In this document: piece after piece, positions 25,646 to 30,832 of the stretch
Position numbering within the stretch: the stretch's first letter is position 1
How the letters are laid out: every line of letters begins with the position of its first letter
From: Cytophagales bacterium
GTDB taxonomy: Bacteria; Bacteroidota; Bacteroidia; Cytophagales; Cytophagaceae
Direction of reading: 5' to 3'
Assembly (NCBI GenBank): GCA_004294225.1
Contig: REBA01000023.1
Coordinates: forward strand, 1-64,000
Length of the DNA stretch: 64,000 nt
The notes under the pieces: generated by a model
Seen by the model: the letters and a program-made list of their open reading frames with translations, nothing else
What the model was told of the DNA's origin: nothing
The model's database searches: none
Made by a program: the position numbers and the translations under genes

Positions 25646-25653
25646 AATAAAAG

Positions 25654-26043
25654 TGGAGCCGGAGGGATTTGAACCCTCGTCCAGAGAAGGTAATCATCGA
25701 ATTTTCTACATGCTTATCTCCGCATTAGTTTTCGTACCCAGCCAGGCGGGGAGCCACCAAACTAGATCTTATTTGCTTTATTTCACCAATTTCTCGCAAA
25801 GGTCATTGGCTAGTCCTGCATTTCGACACCTCGAATTCTATACTAGCAGTACCGTAGGATAGAGAGATGATGGCCTTCTCAATCTTATTGAGAATAAGCT
25901 AATCTAACATTCCGTCAGATTAAGCAGCCATGGCGTAAGAATTTTCGCCAATTATATTGTAGAACTATCTTTCAAGGCTCTCATTCTATGAGCCTGCATG
26001 CTTATATCCGCAACCACTCAGCCTGTCAATTCCGGTCGGCCCC
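25654..26043 (-). ncRNA. ssrA: tmRNA (SsrA)
   Basis: Read on the minus strand the RNA starts GGGGCCGACCGGAATTGACA and ends with a T-arm GGTTCAAATCC and CGGCTCC plus discriminator A. The first seven bases pair with the last seven before the discriminator to form the tRNA-like acceptor (one G-U pair). CCA is not encoded. The internal reading frame gives GENSYAMAA followed by TAA, a typical Bacteroidota tag. tmRNA rescues ribosomes stalled on broken messages and marks the product for proteolysis. The open frame readable on the plus strand across it is not a gene. Confidence 0.96.
25920..25949 (-). other. tmRNA tag-peptide reading frame
   Basis: Codons GGC GAA AAT TCT TAC GCC, then ATG GCT GCT TAA, encode GENSYAMAA. 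With the alanine carried by tmRNA itself the added tag is (A)GENSYAMAA, ending in the small hydrophobic residues recognised by ClpXP-type proteases. Confidence 0.93.
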
Positions 26044-26107
26044 ATGTGTCAATGAACAATTATAATGATACTAGAAAAATAAAGAAAGTAAAGTATCAGA
26101 AAAAAAG

Positions 26108-26178
26108 AGGTCGCGAGCGGATTTGAACCGCTGTAGGAGGTTTTGCAGACCTCAGCCTAACCGCTCGGCCACGCGACC
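26108..26178 (-). tRNA. tRNA-Cys (GCA)
   Basis: The minus-strand cloverleaf has acceptor GGTCGCG/CGCGACC, D-arm GGCCGAGCGGTTAGGC, anticodon stem GAGGT/ACCTC with loop CTGCAAA giving anticodon GCA, and T-arm AGCGGTTCAAATCCGCT. The discriminator is U, the usual cysteine identity base. CCA is not encoded. It lies between rpsA and ssrA, all on the same strand. Confidence 0.96.
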
Positions 26179-26231
26179 TTTTAAAGAGGAGTACAAACTT
26201 ATACTAATTTTGTGATTATCCAAAATATTAT

Positions 26232-26267
26232 AAAAAAAAGAAAGTGTCTAAAGACACTTTCTTTTTT
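26232..26267 (-). terminator. Intrinsic terminator after rpsA
   Basis: AAAGTGTCT pairs with AGACACTTT across a two-base loop, with A and T tracts extending the stem on both sides. It lies 25 bases beyond the rpsA stop and separates rpsA from the tRNA-Cys/ssrA segment. Confidence 0.9.
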
Positions 26268-26291
26268 ACTTTTCATTGCTAATAAAGCTAA

Positions 26292-28133
26292 TTATTCTTC
26301 TGTTTTTTTAGCTTTAGCTTTTTTAGGTTTTTCTTCTTTCTGAGCATCTGCTTCATTGTAGGCATCTTTCAATGCTGATAATGCAGCTATGTCTCCCATA
26401 GTAGATTTCTCAAGAGCTACAGGTTTTTCTACTTTTGCTTTAGTAGTAGCTGGAGCCTCTGTAGATTTTGCTATTGCTTTTTTACTTGCAACTTCTTCTT
26501 CGGTAGCTTCTGTAAAGGTTCTTGTATGCGATAATAAGATTTTCTTATCGTCTTTAGAAAACTCAATTACTCTAAAATCTAAGGATTCACCATTTTCAGC
26601 ATTCTTACCATTTTGCTTAATTAATTGCTTATTCATAGCAAAACCTTCAATTCCGTATGGCAACTCTATTACTGCACCTTTATCATTTTTAGAGGTAATC
26701 ATTCCTTTGTGGTCTGAACCTACAGTAAATATAGTTTCAAAAGTATTCCAAGGATTTTCTTCTAATTGCTTATGTCCTAATGCTAATCTTCTGTTTTCAG
26801 AATCTAACTCGAGAACTATGACATCAAGCTTATCACCAACTTTCACAAATTCAGAAGGGTGTTTAATCTTTTTTGTCCAAGAAAGATCTGAAACGTGCAC
26901 TAGGCCGTCAATACCTTCTTCTAGTTCTATAAACAATCCAAAATTAGTAAGATTTCTTACCACGCCTGTATGCTTACTTCCAAGTGCATACTTAGTGATA
27001 GAATCAGTTTTAGTCCAAGGATCTTCGGTAAGTTGTTTTATACCTAAGGACATTTTTCTTTCGTCTCTATCTATAGTTAAAACGACTGCCTCAAGTTCAT
27101 CGCCTACTTTAATAAAATCTTGTGGATTTCTCAAGTGTTGAGACCAAGACATTTCTGATACGTGAATCAGTCCTTCTACTCCTTGAATAATCTCTAAAAA
27201 TGCACCATAATCAGCTACATTGACAATTTTACCTTTCACTTTAGACCCTACAACCACATCGCCTTGAAGAGCATCCCAAGGATGTGCAGAAAGTTGTTTC
27301 ATACCAAGAGAAATACGTTTTTTCTCATCATCAAAATCTAAAACTACTACGTTCACTTTTTGGTCTAAGCTTAATACTTCATCTGGATGATTTATTCTTC
27401 CCCATGAAATATCAGTGATATGAAGTAATCCATCCACTCCTCCCAAATCTATAAATACCCCAAAATTGGTCATGTTTTTAATCACTCCTTCAAGTACCTG
27501 ACCTTTCTCAAGATTATTTAGAATTACTGCTTTTTGTTTTTCAATATCTTTTTCAATCAATACTTTGTGAGAAACAACTACGTTATCGTTGGTATAGTTG
27601 ATTTTCACAACTTTAACTTCCATTTTCTTTCCTACAAATATATCGAAATCTCTAATTGGCTTCACATCTATCTGAGAACCGGGCAAGAACGCTTCTATTC
27701 CATACACATCTACAATCAAACCACCTTTAGTTCTTCTTTTCACCATTCCTTCGATAATAATATCTTGATCTAATGCATCTTTGATATTATCCCAAGCTTT
27801 CACAATTTTCGCTTTCTTTCTAGAAAGTATTAATTGCCCATTGGAATCTTCTCTGTCCTCTACATATACATCTACAGAATCGCCAATCTTTAGATTTTCA
27901 ACATCACGAAATTCAGATAAAGGAATTAAACCATCCGATTTAAAACCAATATTCAAAATCACATCTTTACTAGTCAAACCAACTACTACGCCAGTGATTA
28001 CTTGTTTTTCAGCTACCTCAGTAAGAGTGCCTTCATACATTTGTTCTAACTCTGCTTTTTGAGCATCGGTATAAGAACTTCCGCCTTTTCTGCCTGTATT
28101 GTCCCAGTCAAAATTTTCTATCGGTGTCAACAT
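26292..28133 (-). CDS. rpsA: 30S ribosomal protein S1
   Basis: S1 helps mRNA bind the 30S subunit. The 613-residue protein carries a series of OB-fold S1 repeats (roughly six between residues 40 and 530), recognisable from repeated units such as GVFIDLGGVDGLLHITDISWGRINHP, GAFLEIIQGVEGLIHVSEMSW and GLFIELEEGIDGLVHVSDLSW. The last about 80 residues are a Lys/Ala/Glu-rich low-complexity tail. The start is ATG at 28133. The 146-base upstream region holds a candidate -7 element and three consecutive hairpins, suggesting control at the leader. Bacteroidota largely lack Shine-Dalgarno sequences, so S1 may matter more for initiation here. Confidence 0.96.
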   Translation of the reverse strand: MLTPIENFDWDNTGRKGGSSYTDAQKAELEQMYEGTLTEVAEKQVITGVVVGLTSKDVILNIGFKSDGLIPLSEFRDVENLKIGDSVDVYVEDREDSNGQLILSRKKAKIVKAWDNIKDALDQDIIIEGMVKRRTKGGLIVDVYGIEAFLPGSQIDVKPIRDFDIFVGKKMEVKVVKINYTNDNVVVSHKVLIEKDIEKQKAVILNNLEKGQVLEGVIKNMTNFGVFIDLGGVDGLLHITDISWGRINHPDEVLSLDQKVNVVVLDFDDEKKRISLGMKQLSAHPWDALQGDVVVGSKVKGKIVNVADYGAFLEIIQGVEGLIHVSEMSWSQHLRNPQDFIKVGDELEAVVLTIDRDERKMSLGIKQLTEDPWTKTDSITKYALGSKHTGVVRNLTNFGLFIELEEGIDGLVHVSDLSWTKKIKHPSEFVKVGDKLDVIVLELDSENRRLALGHKQLEENPWNTFETIFTVGSDHKGMITSKNDKGAVIELPYGIEGFAMNKQLIKQNGKNAENGESLDFRVIEFSKDDKKILLSHTRTFTEATEEEVASKKAIAKSTEAPATTKAKVEKPVALEKSTMGDIAALSALKDAYNEADAQKEEKPKKAKAKKTEE

Positions 28134-28157
28134 ATTTATTTTAAAGCTCTTTTTACA

Positions 28158-28238
28158 TCAATATTCGAGCAAGGATATTGAAATTAAGTTTGTAAAAACT
28201 TCAAACAACGCATTCGAAGTTCCATTCTGTTAAATGGA
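28158..28238 (-). promoter_or_regulatory. Three-hairpin leader of rpsA
   Basis: In transcript order: TCCATT/AATGGA with a 6-base loop (28238-28221); AACTTC/GAAGTT with a 13-base loop (28221-28197); TCAATAT/ATATTGA with a 10-base loop (28181-28158). All three stems are perfect and sit between a candidate -7 element and the start codon. In gamma-proteobacteria the rpsA initiation region also folds into a series of hairpins used for S1 autoregulation. Similar use here is inference. Confidence 0.45.
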
Positions 28239-28241
28239 TTG

Positions 28242-28249
28242 CAAAATTA
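28242..28249 (-). promoter_or_regulatory. Candidate -7 element for rpsA
   Basis: On the minus strand this reads TAATTTTG, an exact TAnnTTTG match. It lies 109 bases before the rpsA ATG and just ahead of the hairpin leader. No convincing -33 TTG is visible in the A/T run behind it. Confidence 0.4.
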
Positions 28250-28279: not shown

Positions 28280-30832
28280 TTAAAATGGATAACCTATACT
28301 AAGATTAAGATTAGGTGAGCGGTAGCCTTCCTTAAAAAATATCCATCTCTTGCCTTCTTCTTGGCTTGGATCTTTGGCTTTCCAACCAAAATCAAATCTG
28401 AGGATGAGAAAAGAAAAGTTAAGCCTTATGCCTAATCCTGTTCCTACCGCTATTTGAGAAAGAAATTTATCAAAATAGAAAACTCCTTCTGGTCTGGCTT
28501 TTTCTACACCATTTCTCGGTGCCCAAATCCAAAGATTACCAGCGTCTACGAACAATGCACTCTCTAAAAATTTAATAATTTTGAATCGATATTCCCAACT
28601 CATTTCTAGCATTATTGAACCTGGTTGCTCGAATCTATAAATTGGTCTTCCTTGTTCATCTCTTTCGGCGACCCAGCCTCCTGGGCCAAGTCTTCTAGGT
28701 GACCAAGACCTTATGCTGTTGCTACCTCCTAAGAAAAAATTTCTCTCATATGGGAGTATTTCTTCATTATCATAAGCCTTTGCGACACCAATATTGTATT
28801 TCATTGCAAAGGTATTTTTTCTGATGGGGAAATATAATCTTAAATCAGTGCTTAACTTAAAATATCTAAAAGTTTTCAATCCCAATAATGTATCACTTTC
28901 TACAAGTAGATTGTTTTTATTAAGAATATTAAGCAAGGTTCCACCTGATTCTGCATAAATTCTAAGATATTTCGATTTTTTATTTTCACCAAGAACGTTG
29001 TTAGTGAAAGTATAAGTGGCATTCATATCACTTACGAAAGAGGTTCCAAAACTATTGATCAAATTATTTCCATTGTTTTGGAGTTTATTTAAATACTCAA
29101 CAAAGCTTGCTGACTTGTTTTTGGTAGATACTAAGTTTAAATCTACTATTGCAAAAGAAAATAGCTTTCTTGGGCTTAATTGAAAATTATAATTCATCCC
29201 TACATTGATATTATCTCTAGTATATTCTGGTCTTCCGATATAAGAATAAGAAACATCGAATCTAGTGACAGGGCTATAATTTTCTATAAAGTTTTGGAAT
29301 TTTCTACCCATTGGGAAGTACAACTGAGGAAAAGACATAGAGGTCTGTGCATTATATTCTTCACTTCTATAAAATTCAGATTTATTAAGTAGCGATGCCT
29401 GACCTACTACTGTGGCTCTAAAACTAGTTTCAAATATTTCAAAACCCCTTAGCGTATTTCTTGATTTAAAATTTAAAAATCCAGAGGGTCCTGGAACAAA
29501 GTTAGAAGCCATACTTAGCCCCACTTCTTCTGTACTTTGAAATTTTTGTAGTGGCATTGTTCTAACATACGCTGTTAGTTTGGGATGTAGCGTATCTGAA
29601 TCGTTTGTTTTTTCAAAATTAATATTAATAAATTTATACATATCCAAAGCTGCTAGTTGCCTTTGAGAATTTTGAATTTTAGAAACATTATAATACTCTT
29701 TTTCTTTAATGAGTAATTTTTTACTAATTATTCTTTTTGAAAAATTTTGTTTTGTATATATAAAATAGATATTTCTATAATAACCAGTATCTTTTTTAAC
29801 GCTAGTATTTCCTTGGTCTGTAAAGAAATAAACTTTATCAAAAGTATACCTCTTATGATTCTTTCCATCGCTTGTATTGGAAATTATTGTAGTGATATTT
29901 ATTTCACGTTTTATTTGAGAAGAATCTATATCAAAAGAAATATATTGGGGATTAAAGTCAAAATATCCTGAGTTTCTCAACAATCTATTGATTCTATCTC
30001 TTTCATTTGTGAGGTCTTGTTCTTTGTAGAAATTATTGATTTTTATATAAGATTCTTTATTGTTCTTTTTAATAAGGTTTGATATTGAAGTATCATTAGT
30101 TTGAGTAGTGAATGTTATTATTTTGTATGGCGATTTTTCAATGATTTTAAACTTCAAACTAATATCTCTTTTATTAGTATCTATCTGACAAGATATTTGA
30201 TTTTCTAGATACCCTTGATTGAAATAAAAATTATGAAGAGTATTGAGGTTAACCTGAATTGAGCTGCTATCAAATATAGATGGGGGTTCGCCTACCACTC
30301 TCATCATCCAGTTACCTTTGCTGATTTTTTCATCTGCTTTATTTAATTTATTGGTTCGTTTTTTTCTTGTTGAAATTAATTTTTTAAAATATTTTGATTT
30401 ATAATGAACCGAATCTAATGCGTTATCATATACTTCATCTTTATTTAAAGCATCTAAATAAAGAGAGTCATTTAAAGTTCTTAATTTGTGATTATACTTT
30501 TCAAGTACCTTTTTTCTTTGCCTTTGGGCATTAAGCGTATCAAAATGATTGAATCCAATTTGATACATCATTAAATATAACCGAACACCAAGAAGACTTC
30601 TATTGGGTTGTGGACTCAGAAGTATGTTTAAATCGCTAAAGTTAAATTTTTTGTTTCCCTCAAAACTTTGCTTTTTTAATAAATATTCATTCGATTTTAA
30701 ATAATTTTTATTTGCACACTGTATAAAAACTAATAGCAAAGGCAGTATAATAAGTGATTTGATAAAATACTTATTAAAAAAAAATATATAATTTATACCT
30801 TTCCGAAAAATCACTACTAATAATAGATTCAA
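28280..30832 (-). CDS. tamL: TamL-type outer-membrane assembly lipoprotein (BamA/TamA superfamily)
   Basis: This is a lipoprotein with POTRA-like domains (about 60-420) and a C-terminal 16-strand-type barrel (about 450-850), ending in GYPF with an aromatic last residue. Barrel motifs include FFLGGSNSIRSWSPRRLGPGG (the RGW-like turn of loop 6) and VGTGLGIRLNFSFLILRFDFG. The lipobox is VFIQC39. TamL is the Bacteroidota lipidated TamA homologue and works with TamB in envelope assembly. No tamB is seen here. The longest frame (850 residues) starts at TTG 30832, immediately beside the ATG of the divergent methyltransferase. GTG at 30814 is an equally likely start and gives a shorter signal peptide. 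Confidence 0.88.
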   Translation of the reverse strand: MNLLLVVIFRKGINYIFFFNKYFIKSLIILPLLLVFIQCANKNYLKSNEYLLKKQSFEGNKKFNFSDLNILLSPQPNRSLLGVRLYLMMYQIGFNHFDTLNAQRQRKKVLEKYNHKLRTLNDSLYLDALNKDEVYDNALDSVHYKSKYFKKLISTRKKRTNKLNKADEKISKGNWMMRVVGEPPSIFDSSSIQVNLNTLHNFYFNQGYLENQISCQIDTNKRDISLKFKIIEKSPYKIITFTTQTNDTSISNLIKKNNKESYIKINNFYKEQDLTNERDRINRLLRNSGYFDFNPQYISFDIDSSQIKREINITTIISNTSDGKNHKRYTFDKVYFFTDQGNTSVKKDTGYYRNIYFIYTKQNFSKRIISKKLLIKEKEYYNVSKIQNSQRQLAALDMYKFININFEKTNDSDTLHPKLTAYVRTMPLQKFQSTEEVGLSMASNFVPGPSGFLNFKSRNTLRGFEIFETSFRATVVGQASLLNKSEFYRSEEYNAQTSMSFPQLYFPMGRKFQNFIENYSPVTRFDVSYSYIGRPEYTRDNINVGMNYNFQLSPRKLFSFAIVDLNLVSTKNKSASFVEYLNKLQNNGNNLINSFGTSFVSDMNATYTFTNNVLGENKKSKYLRIYAESGGTLLNILNKNNLLVESDTLLGLKTFRYFKLSTDLRLYFPIRKNTFAMKYNIGVAKAYDNEEILPYERNFFLGGSNSIRSWSPRRLGPGGWVAERDEQGRPIYRFEQPGSIMLEMSWEYRFKIIKFLESALFVDAGNLWIWAPRNGVEKARPEGVFYFDKFLSQIAVGTGLGIRLNFSFLILRFDFGWKAKDPSQEEGKRWIFFKEGYRSPNLNLSIGYPF

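Follow-up and report, generated by a model that had tools for sequence, protein, structure and literature searches.

A conserved pseudoknot in the rpsA leader of Cytophagales, a candidate autogenous leader of ribosomal protein S1

The window (the whole stretch of DNA analyzed, 64,000 nucleotides of a Cytophagales genome) carries rpsA on its minus strand, with an ATG start codon at 28133 and a gene call that corresponds to the NCBIfam 30S ribosomal protein S1. The gene upstream of rpsA, which matches TamL, lies on the same strand and ends at 28280; the promoter and leader are thus contained in an intergenic gap of 146 bases. No second ribosomal-protein gene was seen 3′ of rpsA on its strand within the window; found there were tRNA-Cys and tmRNA, giving the one-strand order rpsA, tRNA-Cys, tmRNA (25651-28133). 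All three genes are kept in the sister loci L002 and L031, and a scan of 24 related loci detected tRNA-Cys within the fetched stretch in most and tmRNA only in these two sisters. In E. coli, tmRNA is among the RNAs bound by S1. The features of the promoter, leader, and gene are as follows.

28242..28249, minus strand: promoter -7 element TAATTTTG (TAnnTTTG); from the sequence, conserved in same-order leaders
28237, minus strand: predicted transcript start (+1); inferred from the box position in F. psychrophilum
28221..28238, minus strand: hairpin 1 (5′-terminal), UCCAUUU aaca GAAUGGA; from the fold, position conserved
28198..28220, minus strand: hairpin 2, ACUUCGAAU gcguu GUUUGAAGU; from the fold, hairpin kept in sister L002
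28182..28197, minus strand: A/U-rich single-stranded linker; from leader comparison
28175..28181, minus strand: pseudoknot stem S1, 5′ strand UCAAUAU; from the pseudoknot fold, covariation, and model R1
28171..28174, minus strand: pseudoknot loop L1, CCUU; from the pseudoknot fold
28167..28170, minus strand: pseudoknot stem S2, 5′ strand GCUC, in the hairpin loop; from the pseudoknot fold and permutation tests
28165..28166, minus strand: pseudoknot loop L2, GA; from the pseudoknot fold
28158..28164, minus strand: pseudoknot stem S1, 3′ strand AUAUUGA; from the pseudoknot fold, covariation, and model R1
28150..28157, minus strand: pseudoknot loop L3, UGUAAAAA; its UGUA is common to many relatives
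28146..28149, minus strand: pseudoknot stem S2, 3′ strand GAGC, 12 nt 5′ of the ATG; from permutation tests
28134..28145, minus strand: A/U-rich spacer from pseudoknot to start codon; from the sequence
26292..28133, minus strand: rpsA, ribosomal protein S1 (613 aa, six S1 domains); NF004953 at E 1.1e-269, PF00575 in six stretches

The initial annotation had described three consecutive hairpins between a TAnnTTTG element and the rpsA start codon, and stems of at least 6, 6, and 7 Watson-Crick pairs were indeed present: (i) stem 1, UCCAUU/AAUGGA, at 28238-28221 with an additional closing U.G; (ii) stem 2, with the core AACUUC/GAAGUU, at 28220-28198, which reaches nine pairs in the fold when a G.U is included; and (iii) stem 3, UCAAUAU/AUAUUGA, joining 28181-28175 with 28164-28158. 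The putative promoter, proposed at the same time, is conserved: 70 of 80 same-order leaders have TAnnTTTG at a position from -170 to -60 relative to the ATG, with 6.7 expected. This element sits 5′ of all three hairpins and would place them in the transcript. In F. psychrophilum the TAnnTTTG box is reported at -12 to -5 (PMC9723704), and the transcript start was therefore put at 28237, at the foot of hairpin 1. Directly after the box, a hairpin with a stem energy of -7 or lower was detected in 57 of the 70 leaders compared with 15.8 expected by shuffling. At the place of hairpin 2, a hairpin of -8 or lower was found in 26 of 50 leaders (9.2 expected), making this element common but less constant than hairpin 1. 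The leader of the window was also found to fold better than shuffled sequence, with -20.8 kcal/mol for 110 nt against -13.9 (z -2.39, 4 of 200 shuffles as good) and a similar signal when folding began at the predicted transcript start (104 nt, z -2.21, 3 of 200 as good). This signal faded once 34 nt of coding sequence were added to the leader (z -1.27, 22 of 200 as good). The single-stranded linker motif AACY was barely enriched (41 of 62 leaders, 30.2 expected).

Closer analysis of the third hairpin revealed that it forms one half of an H-type pseudoknot, in which the loop GCUC pairs with a downstream GAGC. Of the three-hairpin description, the presence of all three elements stands, while the picture of simple consecutive hairpins is kept only in part because hairpin 3 belongs to this pseudoknot; in addition, hairpin 2 is less constant than that picture would have it. 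The pseudoknot of the window is among the weaker members of its kind, at -14.8 with an S2 of only 4 bp, and 6 of 300 shuffles were as good. The sister locus L002, whose protein is 89% identical, has a strong pseudoknot (-21.9, 0 of 300 shuffles as good), and its stem S1 differs from that of the window on both sides of several pairs. Thus, the window pseudoknot is weak when taken alone, yet it is made secure by the pseudoknots of its relatives. The nested minimum fold of the window places L3 in a different A/U helix with the upstream linker (28190-28196 with 28150-28156). This helix was rejected as a real element, since it was not conserved and 59 of 300 permutations were as good.

Conservation was examined in relatives of the same order. 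A query with the S1 protein gave a match at E ≤ 0.001 in all 59 relatives, a few of which (G014, G018, G025, and G058 among them) yielded only weak matches to other S1-domain proteins. A total of 130 leaders was pooled (30, plus 80 loci and 20 stretches), of which 120 differed from one another in the last 85 bases; removal of near-duplicates left 80. Six more same-order loci (L111-L116) were left out of the counts. The start codon was taken as the ATG nearest the aligned start; it is doubtful in L026, L185, and L196, which were retained in the counts. Nearly all leaders showed complementarity between the loop of their last hairpin and the strand just 5′ of the ATG, the pairing of a hairpin loop with an outside strand that defines the H-type. 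When the S1 hairpin was picked by energy alone, ignoring S2, the best helix between loop and downstream strand averaged -9.04 kcal/mol across the 80 leaders, compared with -4.98 (sd 0.33) after the strands were swapped between species; none of the 200 permutations reached the observed mean, the lowest being -5.90. The downstream strands are short and G-rich, and when they were compared with their own dinucleotide shuffles only 29 of the 80 leaders ranked within 5 of 100. With both stems scored jointly, 62 of the 80 leaders had a pseudoknot of -17 kcal/mol or lower; shuffled sequence reached this level in 4.0% of 3200 cases, and control gene starts taken from these loci did so in 17 of 210. The remaining 18 leaders had no pseudoknot at this threshold, and some of these have a doubtful start (L026, L185, and L196 run into coding sequence).

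The sequences of the pseudoknots vary widely. Among the 62 leaders, 56 different pairs of S2 strands were found, ranging over GCUC/GAGC, UGAUCCUA/UAGGAUCA, GAAUCA/UGAUUC, and CAACAA/UUGUUG, and no invariant loop core was apparent. The geometry is more regular: L1 is mostly 1-5 nt, L2 0-3 nt, and L3 mostly 7-10 nt long, and in same-order leaders the distance from the end of S2 to the ATG is 4-17 nt (median 10). In alignment A3 (18 sequences), the covariation score of stems S1 and S2 was 0.499 compared with 0.216 in shuffled alignments (0 of 500 as high), and sliding the pairing along the alignment gave only 0.07-0.25 (at most 0.247). Stem S1 was 87% paired in A3 and S2 60%, the latter because the register slips in some rows. 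RNAalifold found zero pairs on a plain MAFFT alignment, which is explained by the S2 strand shifting one base between lineages; pairing was judged instead by the per-species tests with permutations. The stem conservation and covariation on which the initial annotation had staked its proposal were thus both found in same-order leaders, and the leader is a conserved 5′ RNA structure supported by covariation, as known for ribosomal-protein leaders. Overall, the pseudoknot structure is very likely real.

A covariance model, R1, was used to examine how closely the structure is tied to rpsA; this model is narrow and covers only the sub-type with UUUCAG...CUGAUGUA, such that at E values up to 10 the rpsA leader was scored in 27 of 82 sources. 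In the genome of the window, R1 matched the rpsA leader at 2.7e-7, with the next match at 0.96. Across the 59 genomes there were 18 matches at E ≤ 0.001, and all 18 lay directly 5′ of rpsA, with the reservation that 12 of these sequences were in the model. Eight weaker matches were found up to 0.1, one at rpsA (G002) and seven elsewhere, about the chance rate. The R1 sub-type thus lies consistently 5′ of a ribosomal-protein gene, as is typical of leaders of this class.

Other orders of the class, which judging from the protein sequences appear to include Flavobacteriales, provided 99 loci or stretches and 92 usable leaders, seven having been dropped for an unclear start. These leaders were found to be built differently. 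The motif [AG]AUACAA occurred within 48 nt of the ATG in 40 of the 92 (1.92 expected), compared with 1 of 130 in the order of the window. A hairpin, sought directly 5′ of this motif, ranked within 1 of 30 shuffles in only 17 of the 40. Discarding near-duplicates and two rows in which no stem adjoined the motif left 30 leaders, and in these the hairpin loops pair with a strand upstream of the hairpin (mean -9.64 versus -6.81 permuted, 0 of 200; -7.78 shuffled). A repeat comparison of both directions in both groups gave (i) for Cytophagales, downstream pairing of -10.86 versus -5.72 (0 of 200; 62 leaders, with the hairpin chosen jointly with S2) and no upstream loop pairing (-7.41 versus -7.50, 127 of 200; 62 leaders); and (ii) for the other orders, upstream pairing of -9.64 versus -6.76 (0 of 200; 30 leaders) and no downstream loop pairing (-3.54 versus -3.60, 115 of 200; 30 leaders). 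The two wirings are therefore mutually exclusive, with neither group showing the pairing of the other, and a downstream pseudoknot of -17 or lower was found in 6 of the 92 other-order leaders, which is the background rate. Leaders with a hairpin followed by UACAA and a loop that pairs upstream are exemplified by L122, L124, L125, L132, L222, L229, L241, L246, L249, and L252. Among the remaining 52 leaders of the other orders, some are short and have a 5′ hairpin only. In one family (f23: L117, L118, L120, and L121), the rpsA leader is very short, with a small 5′ hairpin, an AAGGAG-like site, and no pseudoknot. Outside the class but within the phylum, 21 leaders (L156-L176) were read by eye, several of which have GGAGG-like sites.

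These comparisons leave room for a tentative proposal, to which we give slightly less than even weight, that a natural pseudoknot bound by S1 is maintained on the S1 mRNA throughout the class and has been built twice, with the loop pairing downstream in Cytophagales and upstream in the other orders. If true, the two-wiring pseudoknot would sense S1 independently of any Shine-Dalgarno pairing, and it would represent a regulatory RNA that was rewired while ligand and place were kept.

As to function, the presence of a conserved knot beside the start codon together with a differently wired knot in related orders suggests self-control by S1. In gamma-proteobacteria, S1 represses its own mRNA by competing with the S1 on the 30S subunit (PMC10931766). 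S1 is also described as a pseudoknot-binding protein: SELEX for E. coli S1 yielded an H-type pseudoknot bound at nM affinity, the protein binds pseudoknots of tmRNA, preQ1, rpsO, and tisB (PMC7708055), and the rpsO pseudoknot is melted by S1 on the 30S subunit (PMC3858243). A pseudoknot beside the start codon of the S1 mRNA fits an autogenous S1 leader in light of this known repression and binding. For ribosomes of Bacteroidia, Shine-Dalgarno pairing is reported not to be used (PMC9976891), and action of bS1 at A-rich sites near -12 has been suggested (PMC6847099). For the other wiring, purification of the Flavobacterium johnsoniae protein is on record (PMC9976891). On balance we favor, with moderate confidence, the reading that the rpsA leader is an autogenous ribosomal-protein leader of S1, in which S1 as the ligand, repression, and competition are inferred. 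Its layout would be a 5′-terminal hairpin, usually a second hairpin, an A/U-rich linker, and an H-type pseudoknot about 10-50 nt from the start codon, with the pseudoknot and its A/U-rich flanks offering bS1 a place to dock with high affinity. At limiting S1 levels, the S1 bound to the 30S subunit would dock there, melt the pseudoknot, and initiate, the phylum making no use of Shine-Dalgarno sequences. An excess of free S1 would instead occupy or stabilize the pseudoknot over the ribosome footprint and block initiation.

The main rival, which we consider rather unlikely, is that the pseudoknot serves as a standby or loading site, dependent on S1, and increases rpsA translation, as has been proposed for E. 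coli tisB, with no feedback from free S1. The tisB pseudoknot is needed for binding of 30S and S1 and for translation (PMC7708055), and a loading element would suit a phylum without Shine-Dalgarno use, for which A-rich sites near -12 have been proposed as targets of bS1 (PMC6847099). However, some 100 nt separate the tisB standby site from the start region, and the S2 of the rpsA leaders ends far closer, at a median of 10 nt 5′ of the ATG, where structure should hinder initiation; moreover, the confinement to rpsA suits feedback better than a general enhancer. It is less probable still that the hairpins merely protect a highly expressed mRNA or shape its start region with no regulation, since, although hairpin 1 is at the predicted 5′ end in most leaders as would be expected of a stabilizing hairpin, this leaves unexplained both a pseudoknot with compensating changes next to the start codon and the oppositely wired second pseudoknot at rpsA in other orders. 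The least probable reading is that S1 is not the ligand and the leader senses a metabolite, a different ribosomal protein, or an sRNA instead. Small H-type pseudoknots of the preQ1 type can serve as metabolite sensors, but the 56 different S2 pairs in 62 leaders and the lack of an invariant loop core make a small-molecule pocket unlikely, and that no second ribosomal-protein gene was seen 3′ of rpsA in the window argues against another ribosomal protein.

Autogenous control by S1 thus remains our preferred reading, and an S1 leader of this kind was not described in the sources searched, namely Rfam 15 and the literature. At gathering score, Rfam 15 returned tRNA or tmRNA only for the window and 10 relatives, and relaxing the threshold for the leader brought up just four matches, all at chance level and well under their gathering scores; these results, like the comparison with published leaders below, bear on known families and not on function. 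In the main text of open-licence papers no S1 leader was found for this phylum. Supplementary listings (Table S7 of PMC9723704, the PMC7247131 supplement) may include one, and the 64 of F. psychrophilum in PMC9723704 could count a structured rpsA leader among them. The closest relatives by phylum are the L13, S4, S15, and S16 leaders of Bacteroidia and Flavobacteria (Eckert and Weinberg 2020, PMC7247131), which are likewise predicted and supported by covariation; these differ in that none is for S1 or 5′ of rpsA, Table 1 of that paper has no S1 leader among its 20, and the word pseudoknot is absent from its main text. In Bacteroidota, S1 is the suspected substitute for Shine-Dalgarno pairing in the start and control of translation, and a conserved pseudoknot on the S1 mRNA offers a direct test of its role; the two wirings of one leader likewise provide material for studying the replacement of regulatory RNAs.

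The E. coli-type rpsA leader consists of three plain hairpins; here, the third hairpin instead lies within an H-type pseudoknot that ends beside the start codon, so the surmise of the initial annotation that this leader is of a design other than the gamma-proteobacterial one is supported as far as the fold goes. The two are nonetheless alike in gene, structured leader, A/U-rich single strands, and the lack of a canonical Shine-Dalgarno sequence, and S1 is the regulator in gamma-proteobacteria (PMC10931766). The E. coli rpsO (S15) leader is similar in that the ribosome-binding region of this ribosomal-protein mRNA forms a pseudoknot, which S1 on the 30S subunit melts (PMC3858243); it differs in that the ligand is S15, a Shine-Dalgarno sequence is present, and the pseudoknot includes coding sequence, whereas that of the rpsA leader ends before the start codon. 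The S1 SELEX pseudoknot (Ringquist 1995, cited in PMC7708055) and the tisB standby pseudoknot are likewise H-type and bound by S1; these are artificial or from a non-ribosomal mRNA and are likened here by fold type, by which the leader pseudoknot would be the natural equivalent of the one obtained by in vitro selection with S1.
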